64,000 nt of DNA from Halanaerobiales bacterium (GTDB lineage Bacteria > Bacillota > Halanaerobiia > Halanaerobiales > Halanaerobiaceae): NCBI GenBank assembly GCA_016278485.1, contig JADQBT010000002.1, positions 322,570 to 386,569 on the forward strand, written 5' to 3'. The translations under genes were made by a program, and so were the position numbers. Shown piece by piece: positions 3,220 to 37,119 of the stretch. The notes below the pieces were generated by a model that worked only from the letters and a program-made list of their open reading frames with translations, had not been told where the DNA came from and searched no databases. Within the stretch, counting starts at the first letter, position 1, and each line of letters starts with the position of its first letter.

Positions 3220-4680
3220 TCACTTTTCCTTATTCATTCTTGATTTATTTTTTTTATTACTAAATGGACGTTTTTTTGTAAGACTATAAATATTTTGTCT
3301 GAAAATATAAGCTTTTAAAGCCGAATAATTAAATGGAATTATTGGCCATAAATAATGAGTGTCAAATGATTTAGTCATTACAAACCAGATAAATACAAAA
3401 GCTATGACAATTAAAAATCCTTTTATGTTAAATAAAACCACTGCAATTAATAAAAGAAACCTTACCATCTTTAAAACTAAAGCAAGCTCATAGCCAGGAA
3501 TAGAAAAATTACTAATAGCCGAAATAGCTAAATATAAAATAACTTCAGGCGTAAAAAGACCAACTTTTACTGCAAAATCACCTAGAATCAAAGCACCAAT
3601 TAAACTAAGTGAGGTAGATAAAGTATTAGGAGTTTGCGTAGAAGCCATTCTGATTAAATCAATACCAAAACTTGCTAAAATAAACTGAATACCTAAGCCT
3701 ATTGAACTCTCCTGTTTAGTACCAATAAAACTTAGAGATTCTGGTAGAAGCTCTGGATTAGTAGCTAGAATCAACCAGACAGCTGGTAAAAAAACTGAAA
3801 ACAAAATTGCTATAAGACGGACAAAAGAAAGATAAGTTCCAATTAAAGCCCCCTGTCGAAAAACCTCTAGTGTTTGTATATGAGATAAAAATGGGGCTGG
3901 CAAAACCAGAGCAGTTGGAGAGTTATCTACAATAATAGCAAGATGCCCCTCAAGAATATGGGCTGCCACATTATCAGGTCTCTCTGTATAACGAACTTTA
4001 GGTAATGGATTAATTGTTTTTCCAATGATAATTTCTTCAATTGTTTTATCAGCCAAAGGCAGACCATCTATCTTAATAGTATTAATTTTTTCTTTGACTT
4101 TATTTAACAAATCGTGTTCAATAATATCATCAATATATACCAGCGCTACATCATTTTTAGACCGGGTTCCAACTTCCAGAACTTCAGCTCTGAAATTGGG
4201 ATCTCTAATTCTTCTTCTAACAGCATTTACATTAAATAACATTGTCTCCACAAAACCATCACTAGGCCCTCTAGTTGATTTTTCCAATTCAGGTTCTTCA
4301 GGAGACCTACTTGTCCAACTCCTCCCATCTATAACTATCGCTTTATTAATTCCATCAATTAATAAAACCTGTGGTCCTTTAAGTATTTGATCAATTACCT
4401 TATCTATAGAATCTACAATTTCAATCTCATGGTATGGTAATTTTTTATCAAGGATTTTTTCAATAAAATCTACTGACATTTCTTCTTCTTTAGCTTCCAT
4501 TAAAGATGTCAAAACTAACATTAACTTATCCTTTATAAAACCATCAATAAATACTAAAGTAGCTTCATGTCTAGCTATTTTGAAATCTCTATTTATAACA
4601 TCAAAACTTTTATCTTTACCGAGTCTTTTATAAATTTCTGCCCTATTTTCTTCTATTTTTTTTGAAAGTAATTTTTGCAA
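3220..4680 (-). CDS. GerA/SpoVAF-family spore germination membrane protein
   Basis: A protein of about 486 residues with a soluble N-terminal domain of roughly 280 residues (LVFIDGFIKDKLM; later YTERPDNVAAHILEGHLAII and DNSPTALVLP). Several membrane segments follow, and the tail contains SFDTHYLWPIIPFN. This matches the A-subunit/SpoVAF family of the germinant receptor, which sits in the inner spore membrane. No B or C receptor subunit is adjacent, so a SpoVAF-like accessory role is as likely as a nutrient receptor. GTG at 4689 is possible, but GGGGTGA overlaps it; TTG at 4680, 5 bases after that site, is preferred. It opens an operon with the 2-hydroxyacyl-CoA-dehydratase-type genes, which is unusual company. 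Confidence 0.85.
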   Translation of the reverse strand: MQKLLSKKIEENRAEIYKRLGKDKSFDVINRDFKIARHEATLVFIDGFIKDKLMLVLTSLMEAKEEEMSVDFIEKILDKKLPYHEIEIVDSIDKVIDQILKGPQVLLIDGINKAIVIDGRSWTSRSPEEPELEKSTRGPSDGFVETMLFNVNAVRRRIRDPNFRAEVLEVGTRSKNDVALVYIDDIIEHDLLNKVKEKINTIKIDGLPLADKTIEEIIIGKTINPLPKVRYTERPDNVAAHILEGHLAIIVDNSPTALVLPAPFLSHIQTLEVFRQGALIGTYLSFVRLIAILFSVFLPAVWLILATNPELLPESLSFIGTKQESSIGLGIQFILASFGIDLIRMASTQTPNTLSTSLSLIGALILGDFAVKVGLFTPEVILYLAISAISNFSIPGYELALVLKMVRFLLLIAVVLFNIKGFLIVIAFVFIWFVMTKSFDTHYLWPIIPFNYSALKAYIFRQNIYSLTKKRPFSNKKNKSRMNKEK

Positions 4681-25477: not shown

Positions 25478-26278
25478 TTATGATCTTACTTTTGTAGCTG
25501 ATTGTAATTCTAAACGTAATTTATCAGCTATTTTAGCAATAAATTGTGAATTAGTTGGTTTACCACTTGTAGAAGAAACGGTATTTCCAAAATACTTATT
25601 TAAAGCGTTAATATTACCTCTTTCCCAAGCAACCTCGATAGCATGCCTAATTGCTCTTTCTACTCTACTTGAGGTCGTGTTGAATGTCTCTGCAACTTTA
25701 GGATATAATTCTTTTGTTACAGCTCCAAGTAATTCCACCTCATTAATAACTAATTCAATTGCTTCCCTAATATAAAGATAACCCTTGATATGTGCTGGTA
25801 CACCTAACTGGTGCATAATTTCAGTTATCTTGACATTGAGATCAACCTCACGTTTATTATTATTTCCAGCAAATACAAAACCTCTTGTACCTCCAGATGG
25901 AGGATTCATCATCTGTTCGATTCTTTCAACTAGCTTGTCTAGGTCAAAAGGTTTCATAATATAATAATTGGCACCAAGTTCAACAACGCGTTGTGTTACT
26001 TCTTCTTGTCCAAAAGCAGTTAAAATAATTGTCTTAACATCATCTGCCATTTCAAGCCGATTCATCTCTTCCATAACACCAATACCATCAAGATGGGGCA
26101 TAATCAAATCTAGCACCAATACGTCGGGTTCTTTTTCTTGTAGTAACTCTAAACCATCTTGTCCATTATAAGCAATGCCAACAACCTCAAAATTATCTTG
26201 TTCGTTAAGATACTCACTTAAAAGCTGACAAAATTCTTTGTTATCGTCGATAAGCATGATTCTAACATTGTCATTCAT
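25478..26278 (-). CDS. spo0A: Sporulation master regulator Spo0A
   Basis: About 266 residues. The receiver domain has [10 protein letters not shown], the phosphorylated Asp in [13 protein letters not shown], and [10 protein letters not shown] with [11 protein letters not shown] linker and the C-terminal Spo0A DNA-binding domain follow ([43 protein letters not shown]). Phosphorylated Spo0A starts sporulation. ATG at 26278 is preferred over the ATG at 26293 because GGGGGT stands 8 bases before it and nothing useful precedes the longer start. It follows spoIVB, as in Bacillus. Confidence 0.97.
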
Positions 26279-30829: not shown

Positions 30830-31651
30830 TTATCCTCCATGTTGTTGATGAGCTGTTTTAACAGTGTTTTTAATGATTTGCTGCCATTTTGCAAGATTAT
30901 TTTTAAGCGAATTGTTCTTTTTTAGATGTACTAAAAACTCAATATTATTGCTATTAGCTCCAGTAATTGGTGAAAAATTAAGATCAATAAGTCCTAAACC
31001 AAGGTCAGAAAAAAACTCACTAAGTTCACATAAAACCTGTTCATGAATAGCTGGATCTCTGACTACACCATTTTTACCAACTCGAGCTTTACCAGCTTCA
31101 AATTGAGGTTTAATAAGTCCAATAAAATCACTATTATCCTGCATGAATTTTAAAGCCTGAGGTAGAATTAATCTTAAGGATATAAAGGAAACATCTGTTA
31201 CTATCAGTTCTACAGAAATTGGTAGTTCAGTTGGACTAAGATAACGAAAATTAGTTCTTTCCTTAACAACTACTCTATTATCCTGTCTCAATTTCCAGGC
31301 CAATTGTCCATAGCCAACATCTATTGCATAAACCTTTTTTGCTCCATGTTGTAACAAACAATCTGTAAACCCACCTGTCGAAGCGCCAATATCAATAGCT
31401 TCTAAATCTGTGGGATCAACTTCAAAAACTTGCAGTGCTTTCTCAAGTTTGAAACCACCCCTACTAACATAGGGATTTCTATCTCCTTTAATTTTAATAT
31501 TAGCAGTAGTTTTAATTTTGGTTCCGGCTTTATCAACCAGTTCTCCATCAACTAAAATTAGACCAGCCATAATAGCTCGTTTAGCTTTACTGCGTGAAGA
31601 AAAATAATTTTGCTCTGCCAAAAAAATATCTAATCGCTCTTTGCTGGCCAT
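30830..31651 (-). CDS. tlyA: TlyA-family rRNA (cytidine-2'-O)-methyltransferase
   Basis: A 273-residue protein. An N-terminal S4 RNA-binding domain (RLDIFLAEQNYFSSRSKAKRA, VDGELVDKAG) is followed by a FtsJ/RrmJ-type methyltransferase domain with AIDIGASTGGFTDCLLQHGA, AIDVGYGQL and VTDVSFISLR. TlyA methylates ribosomal RNA; the Bacillus homologue YqxC is uncharacterised in detail. It overlaps the end of dxs by 22 bases. Confidence 0.92.
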   Translation of the reverse strand: MASKERLDIFLAEQNYFSSRSKAKRAIMAGLILVDGELVDKAGTKIKTTANIKIKGDRNPYVSRGGFKLEKALQVFEVDPTDLEAIDIGASTGGFTDCLLQHGAKKVYAIDVGYGQLAWKLRQDNRVVVKERTNFRYLSPTELPISVELIVTDVSFISLRLILPQALKFMQDNSDFIGLIKPQFEAGKARVGKNGVVRDPAIHEQVLCELSEFFSDLGLGLIDLNFSPITGANSNNIEFLVHLKKNNSLKNNLAKWQQIIKNTVKTAHQQHGG

Positions 31652-33543
31652 AAACTTTCAACCTCCAGGCCGGCTGCAAAAATTTCATTTGCTTTCTGTA
31701 AAATTCCTTTTGTATCAAGTTGATAATCTGCTCTCATCTCTCCCATATCTCCATGACGGACAAATTCATCACTAATACCAAGTAAATAAATATTAGTTGT
31801 ATTTAAATTATTTTTATTTGCCAGTTCTAATACTGCTGAGCCAAAACCACCGGCTAAAGCTTGTTCTTCAACAATCAAAACCTTTTTATAATTATTAAGA
31901 GCATCTAATATCAACTCTTCATCTAGTGGTTTTACAAACCTTGCATCAATTACACCAGTATTTATACCATTTTTATCTAGTATCTCTGCTGCTTCTAAAG
32001 CTGGATAAACAGTTGAACCAATAGCCAAAACAAGTAATTCTTCACCTTTTTTGAGAGTTTCTGCCTTAGCAATTTCCATATTTATTAACTGATCATCAAG
32101 TGAAACTCCTTTTACCTCTCCACGAGGATACCTTACTGCTGCCGGACCAGGATGATTAAGTGCTGTATATAACATATGCTGCTGCTCATTTTCATCGCGT
32201 GGAGCCATAATTACCATATTTGGGATAGCCCTCAGAAAAGAAAAATCAAATACTCCTTGATGAGTTTCTCCATCATTTCCTACTATTCCAGCCCTATCAA
32301 TAGCAAGTGTTACAGGCAATTTTTGGATACAAAGATCATGGATTACTTGATCATAAGCTCTTTGCAAAAATGTAGAATAGAGAGCCACAACAGGACGCAA
32401 TCCACCACGAGCTAAACCAGCTGCCAGAGTGACTGCATGTTGTTCAGCAATTCCAACATCATAGGTTCGCTCAGGATATTTATCGGCAAAAATTTGCAAA
32501 CCAGTTCCAGCCGGCATTGCTGCTGTAATACCAACAAGGTCGGATCTTTCTTCCGCCATTTTTAACATAGTCTGTCCAAAAATTTGACTATAAGTAGGTT
32601 TTTGCTTTTTCGCTATACTTTCACCAGATTTAATATCAAACTGGCTAACACCATGATATTTACTGGGTTGATCTTCTGCAGGTTGATAACCTTTGCCTTT
32701 TTTGGTAATTGTATGAATTAAAACTGGGCCGTCTAAATTTCCTGCTTTCTCAAATGTACTTACTAATTCCTGTATATTGTGACCATCAATAGGTCCTAGA
32801 TATTTAAAGCCCATTTCTTCGAAAAGAATACCTGAAATAAAAACATATTTAAGACCATTTTTGATGCGTTCTATTGTTTTAGAAACAGATGAACCAATTT
32901 TAGGAATACGATTAATAATAAATTCAATATCTTCTTTCAAACGATTCACAGTTGGATCTGAGCGTAAATTTGATAGATAGTGTGATAATGCTCCTACATT
33001 ACCCGAAATCGACATTTCATTATCATTTAGTACAACTTTCATATTTGTCTTTAAATGACCAGCATGATTAAGCGCTTCAAAGGCCATTCCACCAGTCATT
33101 GCTCCATCACCAATAACTGCATATATTTCATTATTAACGTGCTGATGGTCCCGGGCCAGAGCCAATCCCAAAGCGGAAGAAATAGATGTTCCACTATGGC
33201 CTGTTTCTATAATATCATGTTCACTTTCTGAACATTTAGGATAACCACTAATTCCACCTTTTTGGCGTAAAGAACCAAAACAATCTTTACGTCCAGTTAC
33301 AATTTTATGCGTATATGCCTGATGACCTACATCCCAGACAATCTTATCCTCTGGGCTATTTAAATAATAATGTAGCGCCAACGACAATTCAACAGCACCT
33401 AAATTAGAAGCAAGATGACCGCCTGTCTTCGCAAGACTTTCGACCAAAAACTGTCTAATTTCAAGAGCCAGATTATTCATTTCATTAATATTTAACTTTT
33501 TTAAATCTTCAGGACTATCTATGTTAGGCAATATTTTTTGCAC
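31630..33543 (-). CDS. dxs: 1-deoxy-D-xylulose-5-phosphate synthase
   Basis: A 637-residue thiamine enzyme for the first step of the non-mevalonate isoprenoid pathway. Motifs: GHLASNLGAVELSLALHYYL, DVGHQAYTHKI, thiamine site GDGAMTGGMAFEALNHAG with NDNEMSIS, then DVGIAEQHAVTLAAG and DRAGIVGNDGETHQG. GTG start behind GAGGTGA. With ispA upstream it brackets the OLE RNA/oapA pair, as in other OLE-bearing genomes. Confidence 0.97.
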   Translation of the reverse strand: MQKILPNIDSPEDLKKLNINEMNNLALEIRQFLVESLAKTGGHLASNLGAVELSLALHYYLNSPEDKIVWDVGHQAYTHKIVTGRKDCFGSLRQKGGISGYPKCSESEHDIIETGHSGTSISSALGLALARDHQHVNNEIYAVIGDGAMTGGMAFEALNHAGHLKTNMKVVLNDNEMSISGNVGALSHYLSNLRSDPTVNRLKEDIEFIINRIPKIGSSVSKTIERIKNGLKYVFISGILFEEMGFKYLGPIDGHNIQELVSTFEKAGNLDGPVLIHTITKKGKGYQPAEDQPSKYHGVSQFDIKSGESIAKKQKPTYSQIFGQTMLKMAEERSDLVGITAAMPAGTGLQIFADKYPERTYDVGIAEQHAVTLAAGLARGGLRPVVALYSTFLQRAYDQVIHDLCIQKLPVTLAIDRAGIVGNDGETHQGVFDFSFLRAIPNMVIMAPRDENEQQHMLYTALNHPGPAAVRYPRGEVKGVSLDDQLINMEIAKAETLKKGEELLVLAIGSTVYPALEAAEILDKNGINTGVIDARFVKPLDEELILDALNNYKKVLIVEEQALAGGFGSAVLELANKNNLNTTNIYLLGISDEFVRHGDMGEMRADYQLDTKGILQKANEIFAAGLEVESLWPAKSD

Positions 33544-33559
33544 TTATCTGTCACCTCTT

Positions 33560-34096
33560 TTAACTTTTACGAAAATAATTAAGAAAAATGTTTAAACTAG
33601 CAATTATTCTACCAACAAAAAAAATTATTTCATCTGCTTTTTTGATACCATAACTTTTAAAAAATGCTTTTCCGCCTACGGTTATTGCCGAAGTAATACC
33701 AATTACAATTAAAGAAATAATTACCGAAGAAATATTCCAGTAATTGATTATTCTGATAACAATTACAGCGCCAATTGCACCACTAACTGTACCACAAATA
33801 TCTCCTACAATATCACACATTAAACTTGCCACTTTATCTCCATGTTTAACTAAATACAGGCCGTATTTTGCTCCACTAATTTTTTTAGATGCCTTTGCAT
33901 TAAATGGCTCAGGCCTAGCGACTGTTGCCGCAACACCAATCATGTCAGAAATAATACCGGTTATAATGATAATTAACAGTATTAATATTGCGACAGGCAT
34001 TGATACAAACTGAACTCTGGTCTGAGAAGCAAATGTCACCAAAATTGCAATAAAAAATGTTGCCAGTGCAATAAATAAACTGTTACGTAAATTTTT
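33560..34096 (-). CDS. oapA: OLE RNA-associated membrane protein (OapA-like)
   Basis: A membrane protein of about 178 residues with four or more hydrophobic segments (NSLFIALATFFIAILVTFA, VSMPVAILILLIIIITGII, SGAIGAVIVIRII, ISLIVIGITSAITVGG) and a conserved-looking acidic stretch MCDIVGDICGTVSG. Directly downstream of an OLE-type RNA and upstream of dxs, this is the position of OapA, which binds OLE RNA and holds it at the membrane. The open frame continues upstream into the RNA, but GAGGTGA followed 8 bases later by TTG (34096) gives the natural start. GTG at 34111 is an alternative. Assignment rests mainly on context and topology. Confidence 0.75.
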   Translation of the reverse strand, partial: KNLRNSLFIALATFFIAILVTFASQTRVQFVSMPVAILILLIIIITGIISDMIGVAATVARPEPFNAKASKKISGAKYGLYLVKHGDKVASLMCDIVGDICGTVSGAIGAVIVIRIINYWNISSVIISLIVIGITSAITVGGKAFFKSYGIKKADEIIFFVGRIIASLNIFLNYFRKS

Positions 34097-34124
34097 CAAA
34101 CTAATTTTCACCTCATAAATAATC

Positions 34125-34708
34125 AGTGTAAGTGGCAATATAACAAGTAAATGCTGTGTCTTAGGTCCAGTAGGTTTTCCCCCGGAATACCCTGCCGTCA
34201 CCAGCGGGGAGATTTCTCTTTAAACTCCGGCCACAAGGTTACCCTATTGTAGAACTGGATTACCACTTAGTGCACACTTTAATCCCTGTTATATTCACAA
34301 TGGACAGTCTAGAAGTTTTCCTTAGCAATACAAAACTGCTTCCTAGCTTCTTTTGCAGTAGAGGTTTCCAGCAGGTTCCACAAAAAATTAGGATCCATAA
34401 CTTTCTGTTTTGCTACTGTCCCCTGTACCACTCAAAGCAAGCTACACTACTTATTCCATTAGAAATAAATAGGTTAACCCGGTTTAAATTTATGTTAGAT
34501 TAATAATTTTAATTACCAGGCCTCCACGGGAAAGGGGTCAACGCCCACATGCCATTGTAGATCGCCCCAAACCCTTAACTTCCTGCACCAACCCCCGACT
34601 GGGCGTCAGTAGCCAGCACAAGAAACTTCATCGATATGCCCGTTGACGGATTTTTAGGCCCGCCTTCAAAAACAGAGTATCGACTAGAATACTGCGCCAC
34701 TTACATTT
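34125..34708 (-). ncRNA. OLE RNA (ornate, large, extremophilic)
   Basis: A stretch of about 580 bases without a credible gene between ispA and oapA/dxs, with many GC-rich segments in an AT-rich genome. Its own TTGAAC-17-TATAAT promoter lies just upstream. The predicted 5' end (TGTAAGTGGC, 34696-34705) and 3' end (GCCACTTACA on the RNA, 34127-34136) are exact 10-base complements, so they would close the molecule into one domain. Size (OLE RNAs are around 600 bases), gene order ispA-RNA-membrane protein-dxs and anaerobe setting match OLE. No T-rich terminator follows, so the transcript probably continues into oapA. I identify it by context and architecture, not by covariance-model search. Confidence 0.85.
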
Positions 34709-34714
34709 TATAAC

Positions 34715-34743
34715 ATTATAACATAATAAAGATAGTCGTTCAA
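34715..34743 (-). promoter_or_regulatory. Near-consensus SigA promoter of the OLE RNA
   Basis: TTGAAC (34738-34743), a 17-base spacer and a perfect TATAAT (34715-34720) on the minus strand. It lies between the ispA stop and the RNA's predicted first base near 34708, so the RNA can be made strongly without readthrough from ispA. Confidence 0.88.
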
Positions 34744-34756
34744 TTTAACTTTTTTT

Positions 34757-35641
34757 CTAATTATTCCTATCTAATAAATAATCAACTAAATTGCTTAATA
34801 CTTGGGCCCTCTCACCAAATATAGCTAACGCCTTTTTGGCTTGATTTGCCACTTTCTCTGCTTCATTTTTTGCTCCCTCAACACCAAGTAGAGCTGGATA
34901 TGTTGATTTTTCTAATGCTTGATCACGGCCCACTGTTTTACCTAATGTTTCTGTATCTCCTGTAATATCAAGTAAATCATCAACAATTTGAAAAACTAAC
35001 CCAATATTATCTGCATATTTTATTAAAGCATGCTTGTTTTCTTGCTTAGATTCACTTACATAGTAACCTATCAGAACTGCCGTTTTGAGTAATGAGCCTG
35101 TTTTAGCACGGTGAATTTTTTTCATTTCAGATAAATTAAGTTTTCTCTGTTCAGCCTTTAGATCAAGTACCTGTCCTCCCACCATACCTGCATATCCAGC
35201 AGAACTTGCAAAAAGATTAATAAGTTTGATTTTGTTTTCTGCAGAAATAGCTAAATTTGCCAGTATTTCAAAAGCATATGTCAATAAAGCATCTCCAGCT
35301 AAAGTCGCTGTCCCCGTTCCAAATACAAGATGATTAGTTGCTTTACCCCTACGCAGTTTATCATCATCCATACATGGTAAATCATCGTGAATTAAAGAAT
35401 AAGTATGAATCAACTCAAGTGCTGCCCCTGCTTTTTTAGCTGCTTTTAAATCACCCTCTAACATTTCAGCAGTTAAAAGTGATAAGACGGGCCTAATTCT
35501 TTTTCCTCCAGAAAAAGTTGTATACTGCATTGCTTTAGTAAGTGTTGGGGCTATTTCTTTATCTGTTAAATCCATTATTTCAGTTAATGTTTTTTCTACT
35601 TCTTCAGCTCTATTATTTAATATTTCTTTAATGTTATTCAA
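34757..35641 (-). CDS. ispA: Farnesyl/geranyl diphosphate synthase (polyprenyl synthetase)
   Basis: About 295 residues with both Asp-rich motifs, DDLPCMDDDKLRRG and IVDDLLDITGD, plus GGKRIRPVLSLL and GGQVLDLKAE. It condenses IPP with allylic diphosphates to make farnesyl or geranylgeranyl diphosphate. The start is uncertain: GGAGG ends 9 bases before TTG at 35641, whereas ATG at 35650 abuts the site. The TTG would start just past the xseB stop. Confidence 0.94.
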   Translation of the reverse strand: MNNIKEILNNRAEEVEKTLTEIMDLTDKEIAPTLTKAMQYTTFSGGKRIRPVLSLLTAEMLEGDLKAAKKAGAALELIHTYSLIHDDLPCMDDDKLRRGKATNHLVFGTGTATLAGDALLTYAFEILANLAISAENKIKLINLFASSAGYAGMVGGQVLDLKAEQRKLNLSEMKKIHRAKTGSLLKTAVLIGYYVSESKQENKHALIKYADNIGLVFQIVDDLLDITGDTETLGKTVGRDQALEKSTYPALLGVEGAKNEAEKVANQAKKALAIFGERAQVLSNLVDYLLDRNN

Positions 35642-35642
35642 C

Positions 35643-35897
35643 TTATTCATCCTCCGCAAAAGGCACTATCTCTTTGAATTCATCATTTTCTTTAATAACC
35701 TGTTCTATTTTCTGCTCAGCCTGATTTAACTCTTGCTGACAAAAACGGATCAGTTTCATCCCATTAGTGAATTTTTCAATTGATTGATCTAATGTCAGGC
35801 CACCATCTTCAAGTTCATTAACTACTAATTCTAATTTACCAATTGCTTCCTCAAACTTTATTTCTTCACTTTTCAACTTCTCCTTTTTCTTTCCCAT
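35643..35897 (-). CDS. xseB: Exodeoxyribonuclease VII small subunit
   Basis: An 84-residue coiled-coil protein with the family core FEEAIGKLELVVNELEDGGLTLDQ and a C-terminal helix rich in Glu/Gln. Several XseB chains bind the XseA large subunit. ATG at 35897, 5 bases after AGGTGA, is preferred to the GTG at 35906. The gene overlaps the 3' end of xseA. Confidence 0.93.
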   Translation of the reverse strand: MGKKKEKLKSEEIKFEEAIGKLELVVNELEDGGLTLDQSIEKFTNGMKLIRFCQQELNQAEQKIEQVIKENDEFKEIVPFAEDE

Positions 35898-37119
35898 CAG
35901 ATTCACCTGCCTTCTTAATCTCTGTCACTTTCGTTAAAATATGTCCATCTGATAATTTAACTTGCAAATTATCATTTACTTCAATTTGACTCACTTGTGA
36001 AACTAACTCATTATTTTTACTTACCAGACTATAGCCTCGCTGCAAAGTTTTCAGAGGACTTAATTTATCTAAACTTGTTGCCAAATTTTCATATTGACCA
36101 GCTAGTTGCTGAAATTTTTGTTTGATTAAATAAATTAATTCTTTTTCAATCTGGTCCAAATATTGCCAGTTACCAGACCAGATTTCTTCAGGCCTAGTAA
36201 AAATCCTTCTTTCGGCCAGGGAATTTAATTTATCCCTTCGCGCTGTTAACTGATTATTTATTGTATTAAAGATCCGTGCTGCAAGATTATTAAGATCTTT
36301 TAATAATTCTTCTCTACTAGCTGTGGCAAGTTCAGCTGCAGCTGATGGTGTTGGCGCACGTAAATCTGCAACAAAATCACTAATTGTAAAATCAGTTTCA
36401 TGCCCGACCCCACTAATTACTGGAATATCTGAATTGAAAATAGCTCGGGCCACAATTTCTTCGTTAAATGGCCAAAGATCCTCAATGGAGCCGCCACCAC
36501 GACTAACAATTATCAAATCAATATCATCTCTTTGATTAAGGTAGTCAATACCAGATTTGATCTCACCTGCTGCTTTATCACCCTGAACATGAGAAGGAAC
36601 AATAAGTAGTGAAAATTGACTTGATCTTCTTTTTATTACAGAGATAATATCTCTAATAGCAGCACCTGTCGGAGAAGTAACAATCCCAATCCTGACAGGC
36701 AGAATTGGGATCTGTTTTTTATGTTCAGTCGCAAAAAGACCTTCTTTTTCAAGCCGAGCTTTTAATTGTTCATAGGCCAAATATAATGAGCCTTTACCTT
36801 CAGGCTCTAATCTATCAACATATAATTGATATTCGCCGCGTTGCTGATAAATACCGAGATAACCTTTAGCAGTTACTTTCAGTCCATCTTCTGGTTTAAA
36901 CTTTAAACCTTGATTCTTGCTTTTAAACATAACTGCTTTAATCTGGGCTGCATCATCTTTAAGCGTAAAATACATATGGCCTGAACCATGGTGATAAAAA
37001 TTTGATATCTCACCATTAAGCCAGATATCTTTTAAATTATTATCTGACTTGATTAAAAACTCAAGATATTTTGTAAGCTCCTGAACAGTATATATTTTTT
37101 GAGAAATACTTTTACTCAT
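35866..37119 (-). CDS. xseA: Exodeoxyribonuclease VII large subunit
   Basis: A 417-residue protein: N-terminal OB fold (VQELTKYLEFLIKSD, DIWLNGEISNFYHHGSGHMYFTLKD), catalytic domain (GIVTSPTGAAIRDIISVIKRR, VSRGGGSIEDLWPFNEE, SGVGHETDFTISDFVADLRAPTPSAAAEL), then a long coiled coil and the C-terminal LQRGYSLV segment. With XseB it degrades single-stranded DNA from both ends. It overlaps nfnB by 8 bases, an unusual upstream partner; nusB-folD is the usual one. Confidence 0.96.
   Translation of the reverse strand: MSKSISQKIYTVQELTKYLEFLIKSDNNLKDIWLNGEISNFYHHGSGHMYFTLKDDAAQIKAVMFKSKNQGLKFKPEDGLKVTAKGYLGIYQQRGEYQLYVDRLEPEGKGSLYLAYEQLKARLEKEGLFATEHKKQIPILPVRIGIVTSPTGAAIRDIISVIKRRSSQFSLLIVPSHVQGDKAAGEIKSGIDYLNQRDDIDLIIVSRGGGSIEDLWPFNEEIVARAIFNSDIPVISGVGHETDFTISDFVADLRAPTPSAAAELATASREELLKDLNNLAARIFNTINNQLTARRDKLNSLAERRIFTRPEEIWSGNWQYLDQIEKELIYLIKQKFQQLAGQYENLATSLDKLSPLKTLQRGYSLVSKNNELVSQVSQIEVNDNLQVKLSDGHILTKVTEIKKAGESDGKEKGEVEK

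Follow-up and report, generated by a model that had tools for sequence, protein, structure and literature searches.

The OLE locus and its genes

The window, the whole stretch of 64,000 nucleotides analysed here, carries on its minus strand the gene order xseA, xseB, ispA, OLE, oapA, dxs and a gene for an FtsJ/S4 protein, where OLE is a large noncoding RNA. Its features are the following, from upstream to downstream.

34757..35650, minus strand: ispA (farnesyl diphosphate synthase family), from its ATG; PF00348 at 207.8 bits and FPPsyn at 357.2 bits, cut-off 275 (stretch searched with Pfam and NCBIfam, 34757-35653)
34715..34743, minus strand: predicted extended -10 promoter of OLE, TTGAAC-17-TATAAT, with TGT before the -10 (promoter scan and comparison)
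34125..34708, minus strand: OLE RNA in its predicted mature extent, the start placed about 7 nt after the -10 and the end placed by stem P1
34696..34705, minus strand: 5' strand of stem P1, TGTAAGTGGC (sequence, covariation)
34391..34396, minus strand: self-complementary GGAUCC loop of the P9.3 arm, a predicted GAUC-type dimer kissing loop (L9.3 by its place in the alignment)
34127..34136, minus strand: 3' strand of stem P1, GCCACTTACA (sequence, covariation)
34109..34114, minus strand: predicted ribosome-binding site of oapA, GAGGTG (from the sequence, with a similar element in most Halanaerobium rows)
33560..34099, minus strand: oapA, TTG start at 34099, 179 aa (identity to OapA, CNNM match, alignment)
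31630..33543, minus strand: dxs, the downstream neighbour; NCBIfam TIGR00204 at 858 bits, cut-off 465.95

An earlier note on this DNA had read the segment between ispA and oapA as a full-length OLE RNA and had proposed a covariance-model search. An Rfam scan of the whole window bore this reading out: RF01071 (OLE) matched at 34716-34116 on the minus strand with 467.5 bits (E 4.6e-134, gathering score 50), and the match spans positions 1-616 of the 616 in the model. In Rfam searches it was the sole OLE match in the whole genome, and OLE was absent from all 14 well-known control genomes. The length of the RNA is predicted to be about 580-600 nt. The segment had also been described as free of any credible protein gene, and the longest listed ORF inside it is indeed a 77-aa antisense frame (the list covers ORFs of at least 50 aa); a protein-coding reading was thus ruled out. 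In the alignment of the whole RNA, the region of the putative kink turn for OapC lines up with conserved letters. The window has a complete OLE system of the ordinary sort, and its RNA belongs to a known class as a regular member; the finding extends this class without adding a new kind.

The order ispA-OLE-oapA-dxs places the RNA between isoprenoid genes and adjoining oapA, as had been expected. The identity of the next gene as oapA also held: its product is 58-73% identical to OapA of 14 named Halanaerobiales loci, all of which have OLE, the closest being Halanaerobium sp. MA284 (73%) and the other Halanaerobiales lying at 58-66%. Against the CNNM domain it scored 26.5 bits, just below the Pfam cut-off of 28.4, and passages of PMC11332333 describe a weak CNNM resemblance for OapA. 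The ORF list begins this gene at a GTG at 34201. We rejected that start, which lies inside OLE, since homology begins at the TTG at 34099 behind GAGGTG; the apparent N-terminal extension of the downstream gene is RNA, as the earlier note had suspected.

By their sequence matches, OapB and OapC are encoded outside the OLE locus in the same genome. One 93-aa protein, whose gene lies between map and infA, matches OLE-associated protein B (PDB 7k9b; 38.7 bits, E 9.6e-9), and another 93-aa protein, encoded between rpoC and rpsL, matches YbxF (48.4 bits, E 1.2e-11). While infA was identified by its Pfam family, the names map, rpoC and rpsL are our reading of the listed ORFs, and we take the map-infA and rpoC-rpsL gaps to be places for OapB and OapC genes. 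Among the 15 Halanaerobiales genomes, the OapB search missed two; according to passages of PMC11332333, OapB and OapC do not occur in every OLE species. The genome also encodes one further CNNM protein, of 435 aa.

Stem P1 and the dimer elements

The complementarity of 10 bases between the two predicted ends of the RNA (34705-34696 with 34136-34127), which the earlier note had pointed out, is exact and covaries in relatives. Across 30 aligned OLE sequences and 11 tested pairs, P1 pairs were formed in 87.5% of 329 cells, and both sides had changed in 8 of the 11 pairs. Covariation reached 0.534; the 500 shuffles averaged 0.248 without once attaining that value, and slid controls did not exceed 0.177. 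Two of the five measures were weaker: 19 of 500 shuffles had at least as many double-change pairs, and 142 of 500 had at least as many pair types. The structure line of the Rfam model RF01071 leaves the P1 ends unpaired, and P1 is named as belonging to domain 2 in passages of PMC12265935. From the end of P1 to the oapA start codon there are 27 nt.

At the level of sequence, both dimer contacts are represented in the window RNA, by an A-rich loop that we take for L4 and by the L9.3 palindrome. GGATCC stands at the P9.3 loop in 14 of the 15 Halanaerobiales OLE rows, which suggests that this lineage uses the GAUC form; GGCC occupies that region in 11 of the 14 printed clostridial rows, L018, L022 and L032 being the exceptions. 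Passages of PMC12286853 describe the kissing loop as switching from GGCC to GAUC or AGCU in OLE. One Halanaerobiales OLE of 544 nt (L005, 5369-5912; 489 bits) is without the P9.3 arm and its kissing loop, and the P9.3 contact therefore appears dispensable. We know of no structure for the window OLE RNA.

A predicted promoter before OLE

The motif TTGAAC-17-TATAAT is present as the earlier note claimed, with the -35 TTGAAC at 34743-34738, a spacer of 17 bases, the -10 TATAAT at 34720-34715 and the TG of an extended -10. It is the top-scoring of seven promoter-like sites at 33400-36000. This number is no excess over shuffled sequence (mean 9.4), so the raw count was dropped as evidence and a position-specific comparison was used instead. 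The comparison took in 62 loci with 51 distinct 90-nt OLE upstream regions; promoters were called by consensus score only, a score of at least 11 counting as strong, and best site, distance and shuffles were computed one by one for 33 OLE upstream regions.

A score of at least 11 was found before OLE in 48 of the 51 distinct regions (the other three being L021, L026 and L046) and TGnTATAAT in 41 of the 51. The -10 of the best site ends 13-25 nt before a conserved anchor, CAGTAT in the window, in 46 regions and outside this range in five. Control regions upstream of oapA, ispA and dxs reached a score of at least 11 in 1 of 37, 0 of 36 and 2 of 34 distinct cases, respectively; as all of these sets include near relatives, their members are not independent of one another, and part of the oapA control falls within OLE. 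Only 1 of 200 shuffles of the window's own 90-nt upstream region scored as high as the window promoter, which, together with the recurrence of such a site before nearly every related OLE, makes it special by its place. Among the 29 phylum loci, that of genome G090 (L046) is the sole one with a best promoter score below 11.

By this comparison, transcription of OLE independent of ispA is well supported as a prediction. Passages of PMC9723947 state that ole of Halalkalibacterium halodurans has its own promoter besides an operon transcript. The OLE promoter is thus known in kind, that of H. halodurans having been reported already, and what is new here is its breadth. We further infer readthrough from the OLE promoter into oapA and dxs, because a site scan of the minus strand lists nothing terminator-like from OLE to oapA and because few strong promoters precede oapA and dxs.

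Four clostridial genomes hold OLEs of 488-492 nt (231-239 bits) that look like short variants, each behind TTGACA-17-TATAAT with 12 of 12 consensus positions.

L033: short OLE, clostridial genome
L034, 5336-5825: short OLE, clostridial genome
L035, 3573-4064: short OLE, clostridial genome
L036, 5340-5827: short OLE, clostridial genome

Co-occurrence, loss and descent of OLE and OapA

We surveyed 61 genomes of the phylum, the window's own and 60 relatives, a set of more than 40 genomes for which stricter filters applied, so that weak or short OLEs could escape. OLE was found in 34 of the 61, and full-length OapA (219.8-269.6 bits) in the same 34. None of the 27 genomes without OLE gave an intact OapA, and 25 of them gave no match at all. 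G061 and G067 hold OapA fragments only, of 57 and 43 positions; they belong to the same genus as G058, whose locus (L048) is intact with OLE. In G061 and G067, two species, the OLE body and most of oapA are gone between an intact ispA and an intact dxs.

L074, minus strand: deletion scar, from the ispA end near 4461 to the dxs start near 4166
L075, 3479-3781: deletion scar

Neither scar locus gave an Rfam match, even at E 1, and both still hold the OLE promoter with TGGTATAAT. From these sequences, OLE RNA and OapA were lost together in the two species, and the loss of OLE may be recent. The survival of the promoter suggests that the downstream dxs uses it.

All three of ispA, oapA and dxs flank OLE in 28 of the 29 phylum loci, and the exception lies at a contig end. 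Of the 36 OapA loci, 33 have OLE, including all 14 of the Halanaerobiales; a contig end truncates L031, one of the three without it. In two loci from outside the phylum (L020 and L023), oapA lies close behind ispA and no OLE above the Rfam cut-off was found in the locus. These genomes may have oapA without OLE, an OLE located elsewhere or one that is too divergent.

In a tree of 53 distinct OapA rows, the 34 rows of the window's phylum lie on one side of a branch with support of 98/89 that is present in 99% of 200 bootstrap trees, and the nearest rows to the window belong to its own family. Since all 34 rows are on one side, no transfer across this branch is needed. We accordingly set aside lateral transfer into the lineage, though the tree has several long end branches and no known root, and the members of family f7 do not group together but sit apart on branches of weak support. 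The OapA sequences, so arranged, fit inheritance within the phylum.

OLE in a lineage with lipopolysaccharide genes

The window genome encodes Omp85 (182.1 bits) and LpxC (303.8 bits). Among the 31 OLE genomes reached through loci, LpxC was found in 15 of 15 Halanaerobiales, the window's included; the remaining 16, most of them clostridia by name, gave no LpxC. In the 61-genome set, LpxC was present in 31 of the 34 genomes with OLE and in 25 of the 27 without it, which indicates that LPS has no bearing on whether a genome of the phylum keeps or loses OLE. The link between OLE and LPS is not universal there either, since no LpxC was detected in three of the 34 OLE genomes (G056 and G073, 94-95% complete, and G090, 99% complete). 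Passages of PMC5007114 report an outer membrane seen by electron microscopy in Halanaerobium saccharolyticum DSM 6643; other strains filed as H. saccharolyticum (L004, L007 and L008) carry OLE, oapA and LpxC. Sporulation as a trait tracking OLE was dropped, since Spo0A occurs in 15 of 15 Halanaerobiales OLE genomes and 10 of 16 others and thus decides nothing. The LPS-carrying window genome itself has a Spo0A C-terminal domain at 25517-25828 on the minus strand (151 bits).

Published accounts of OLE concern mostly Gram-positive hosts and suggest contacts with the cell wall. The 2024 survey singles out the Negativicutes, which stain Gram-negative, as lacking OLE, alone among the major Firmicute classes, and reads this absence as a hint at Gram-positive wall biology (PMC11332333); a passage of the 2025 review has domain 2 as a possible contact of Gram-positive peptidoglycan (PMC12265935). 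The main text of the 2024 survey contains no Halan- names (PMC11332333), and in the open-licence literature we found no paper joining OLE RNA with Halanaerobiales or Halothermothrix, an earlier print listing being possible.

We compared the domains of the RNA by taking the columns 90% conserved in 15 LpxC-negative rows and counting how many of them agree in letter with 80% or more of 15 diderm rows, with domain borders in the count that are our own approximation. In domain 1, the diderms kept 71 of 85 such columns; in domain 2 they kept 57 of 64 in its 3' part and 14 of 15 in P1-P2. When the three short variants were left out, the counts became 124 of 160 for domain 1, and 70 of 87 (3' part) and 15 of 16 (P1-P2) for domain 2. 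By these counts, domain 2 is about as well kept in the diderms as domain 1.

A model of the window OLE and its alternatives

We consider it very probable that the window encodes a full-length OLE RNA with its own promoter, closed by P1, that is predicted to work with OapA as a membrane-bound stress-response ribonucleoprotein. According to passages of PMC12265935 and PMC11332333, the OLE ribonucleoprotein of H. halodurans is associated with the membrane and aids cells that face ethanol, cold, high magnesium or poor carbon sources. In the window genome, OLE transcription would start near 34708 from its own promoter, an RNA of about 580 nt would be freed by processing within the 27-nt stretch from P1 to the oapA start codon, and the same promoter would read through into oapA and dxs. 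The RNA would dimerise via the GGAUCC loop and the A-rich loop taken for L4, and OapA, the predicted product of the next gene, would anchor it in the membrane. Given the LPS genes of the host lineage, the particle would likely be situated in the inner of two envelope membranes, and on the published transmembrane model, provided that it is right, domain 2 would be turned towards a periplasm instead of a thick Gram-positive wall. In a host genome with outer-membrane (LPS) genes, the predicted particle is thus likely not tied to Gram-positive cell walls.

Several features of the locus could be read differently. The end of ispA and the -35 are separated by 13 nt, for which the scan lists no terminator-like site, and the H. 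halodurans cluster is described in passages of PMC12265935 as transcribed into one polycistronic RNA, so that OLE might be cut solely from a long ispA operon transcript while the promoter-like sequence goes unused. This is unlikely in view of the strong promoter before OLE in 48 of 51 regions and the placing of the best site 13-25 nt before the anchor in 46 of them, and the promoter is moreover kept in the two species that lost OLE and reported for H. halodurans ole itself (passages of PMC9723947). We regard it as quite improbable that OLE is a cis-acting leader controlling oapA (and dxs) instead of a trans-acting particle. Its position directly upstream of oapA in 29 of 29 phylum loci and the short distance from P1 to the oapA start would suit such a leader, but the self-complementary P9.3 loop is kept in 14 of 15 Halanaerobiales rows, the 3' region of reported OapB binding is conserved in sequence, and H. 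halodurans has OLE as a separate, abundant RNA that forms part of a protein complex (passages of PMC12265935 and PMC9723947). As for decay, it is known in the phylum from L074 and L075, which lack OLE and most of oapA; for the window locus to be a decayed, unexpressed copy is scarcely credible, given that the full-length match, P1, oapA and the promoter are all intact and that OapB and OapC genes are present.

A wider reading can be put forward tentatively: OLE may have been an envelope machine already in two-membrane Firmicutes ancestors, its ancestral task being the membrane and its ions and unrelated to the thick Gram-positive wall. We hold this to be possible and rather doubtful, and the OapA tree, lacking a known root, does not prove that OLE predates the loss of the outer membrane. 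If true, OLE would cross the inner membrane of the LPS-bearing Halanaerobiales, and its domain 2 would do its work in a genuine periplasm. The Halanaerobiales are a second LPS-diderm Firmicute lineage and so provide a counter-case to the idea of Gram-positive wall biology and a natural setting for locating domain 2. The promoter sequence that survives in the scar species shows where OLE is predicted to start. Two aspects of the setting deserve a second look: an LPS-diderm lineage has a complete OLE system, and a promoter sequence outlives its RNA.

Comparison with known OLE systems

With the OLE of H. halodurans, the window RNA shares its family, matched along the full model, an oapA gene immediately downstream and adjoining isoprenoid genes, as well as OapB and OapC genes in the genome and a promoter of its own, reported there and predicted here. 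It differs in its host, which comes from an LPS-carrying lineage, and in its P9.3 loop of GAUC type; the additional 435-aa CNNM protein of the window genome, MpfA-like by score and length alone, is a further difference. Short OLE variants 1 and 2 share many conserved nucleotides with it, but passages of PMC11332333 report them with P7, P8 or P9 shortened or missing, whereas the window RNA is full length. The Clostridium acetobutylicum OLE dimer, known by cryo-EM and described in passages of PMC12286853, shares with the window RNA the A-rich loop taken for L4, the conserved joining regions and a P9.3 arm with a self-complementary loop, and it is in the letters of this loop that the window stands apart from the clostridia, with GGAUCC in place of the GGCC of 11 of the 14 printed clostridial rows.
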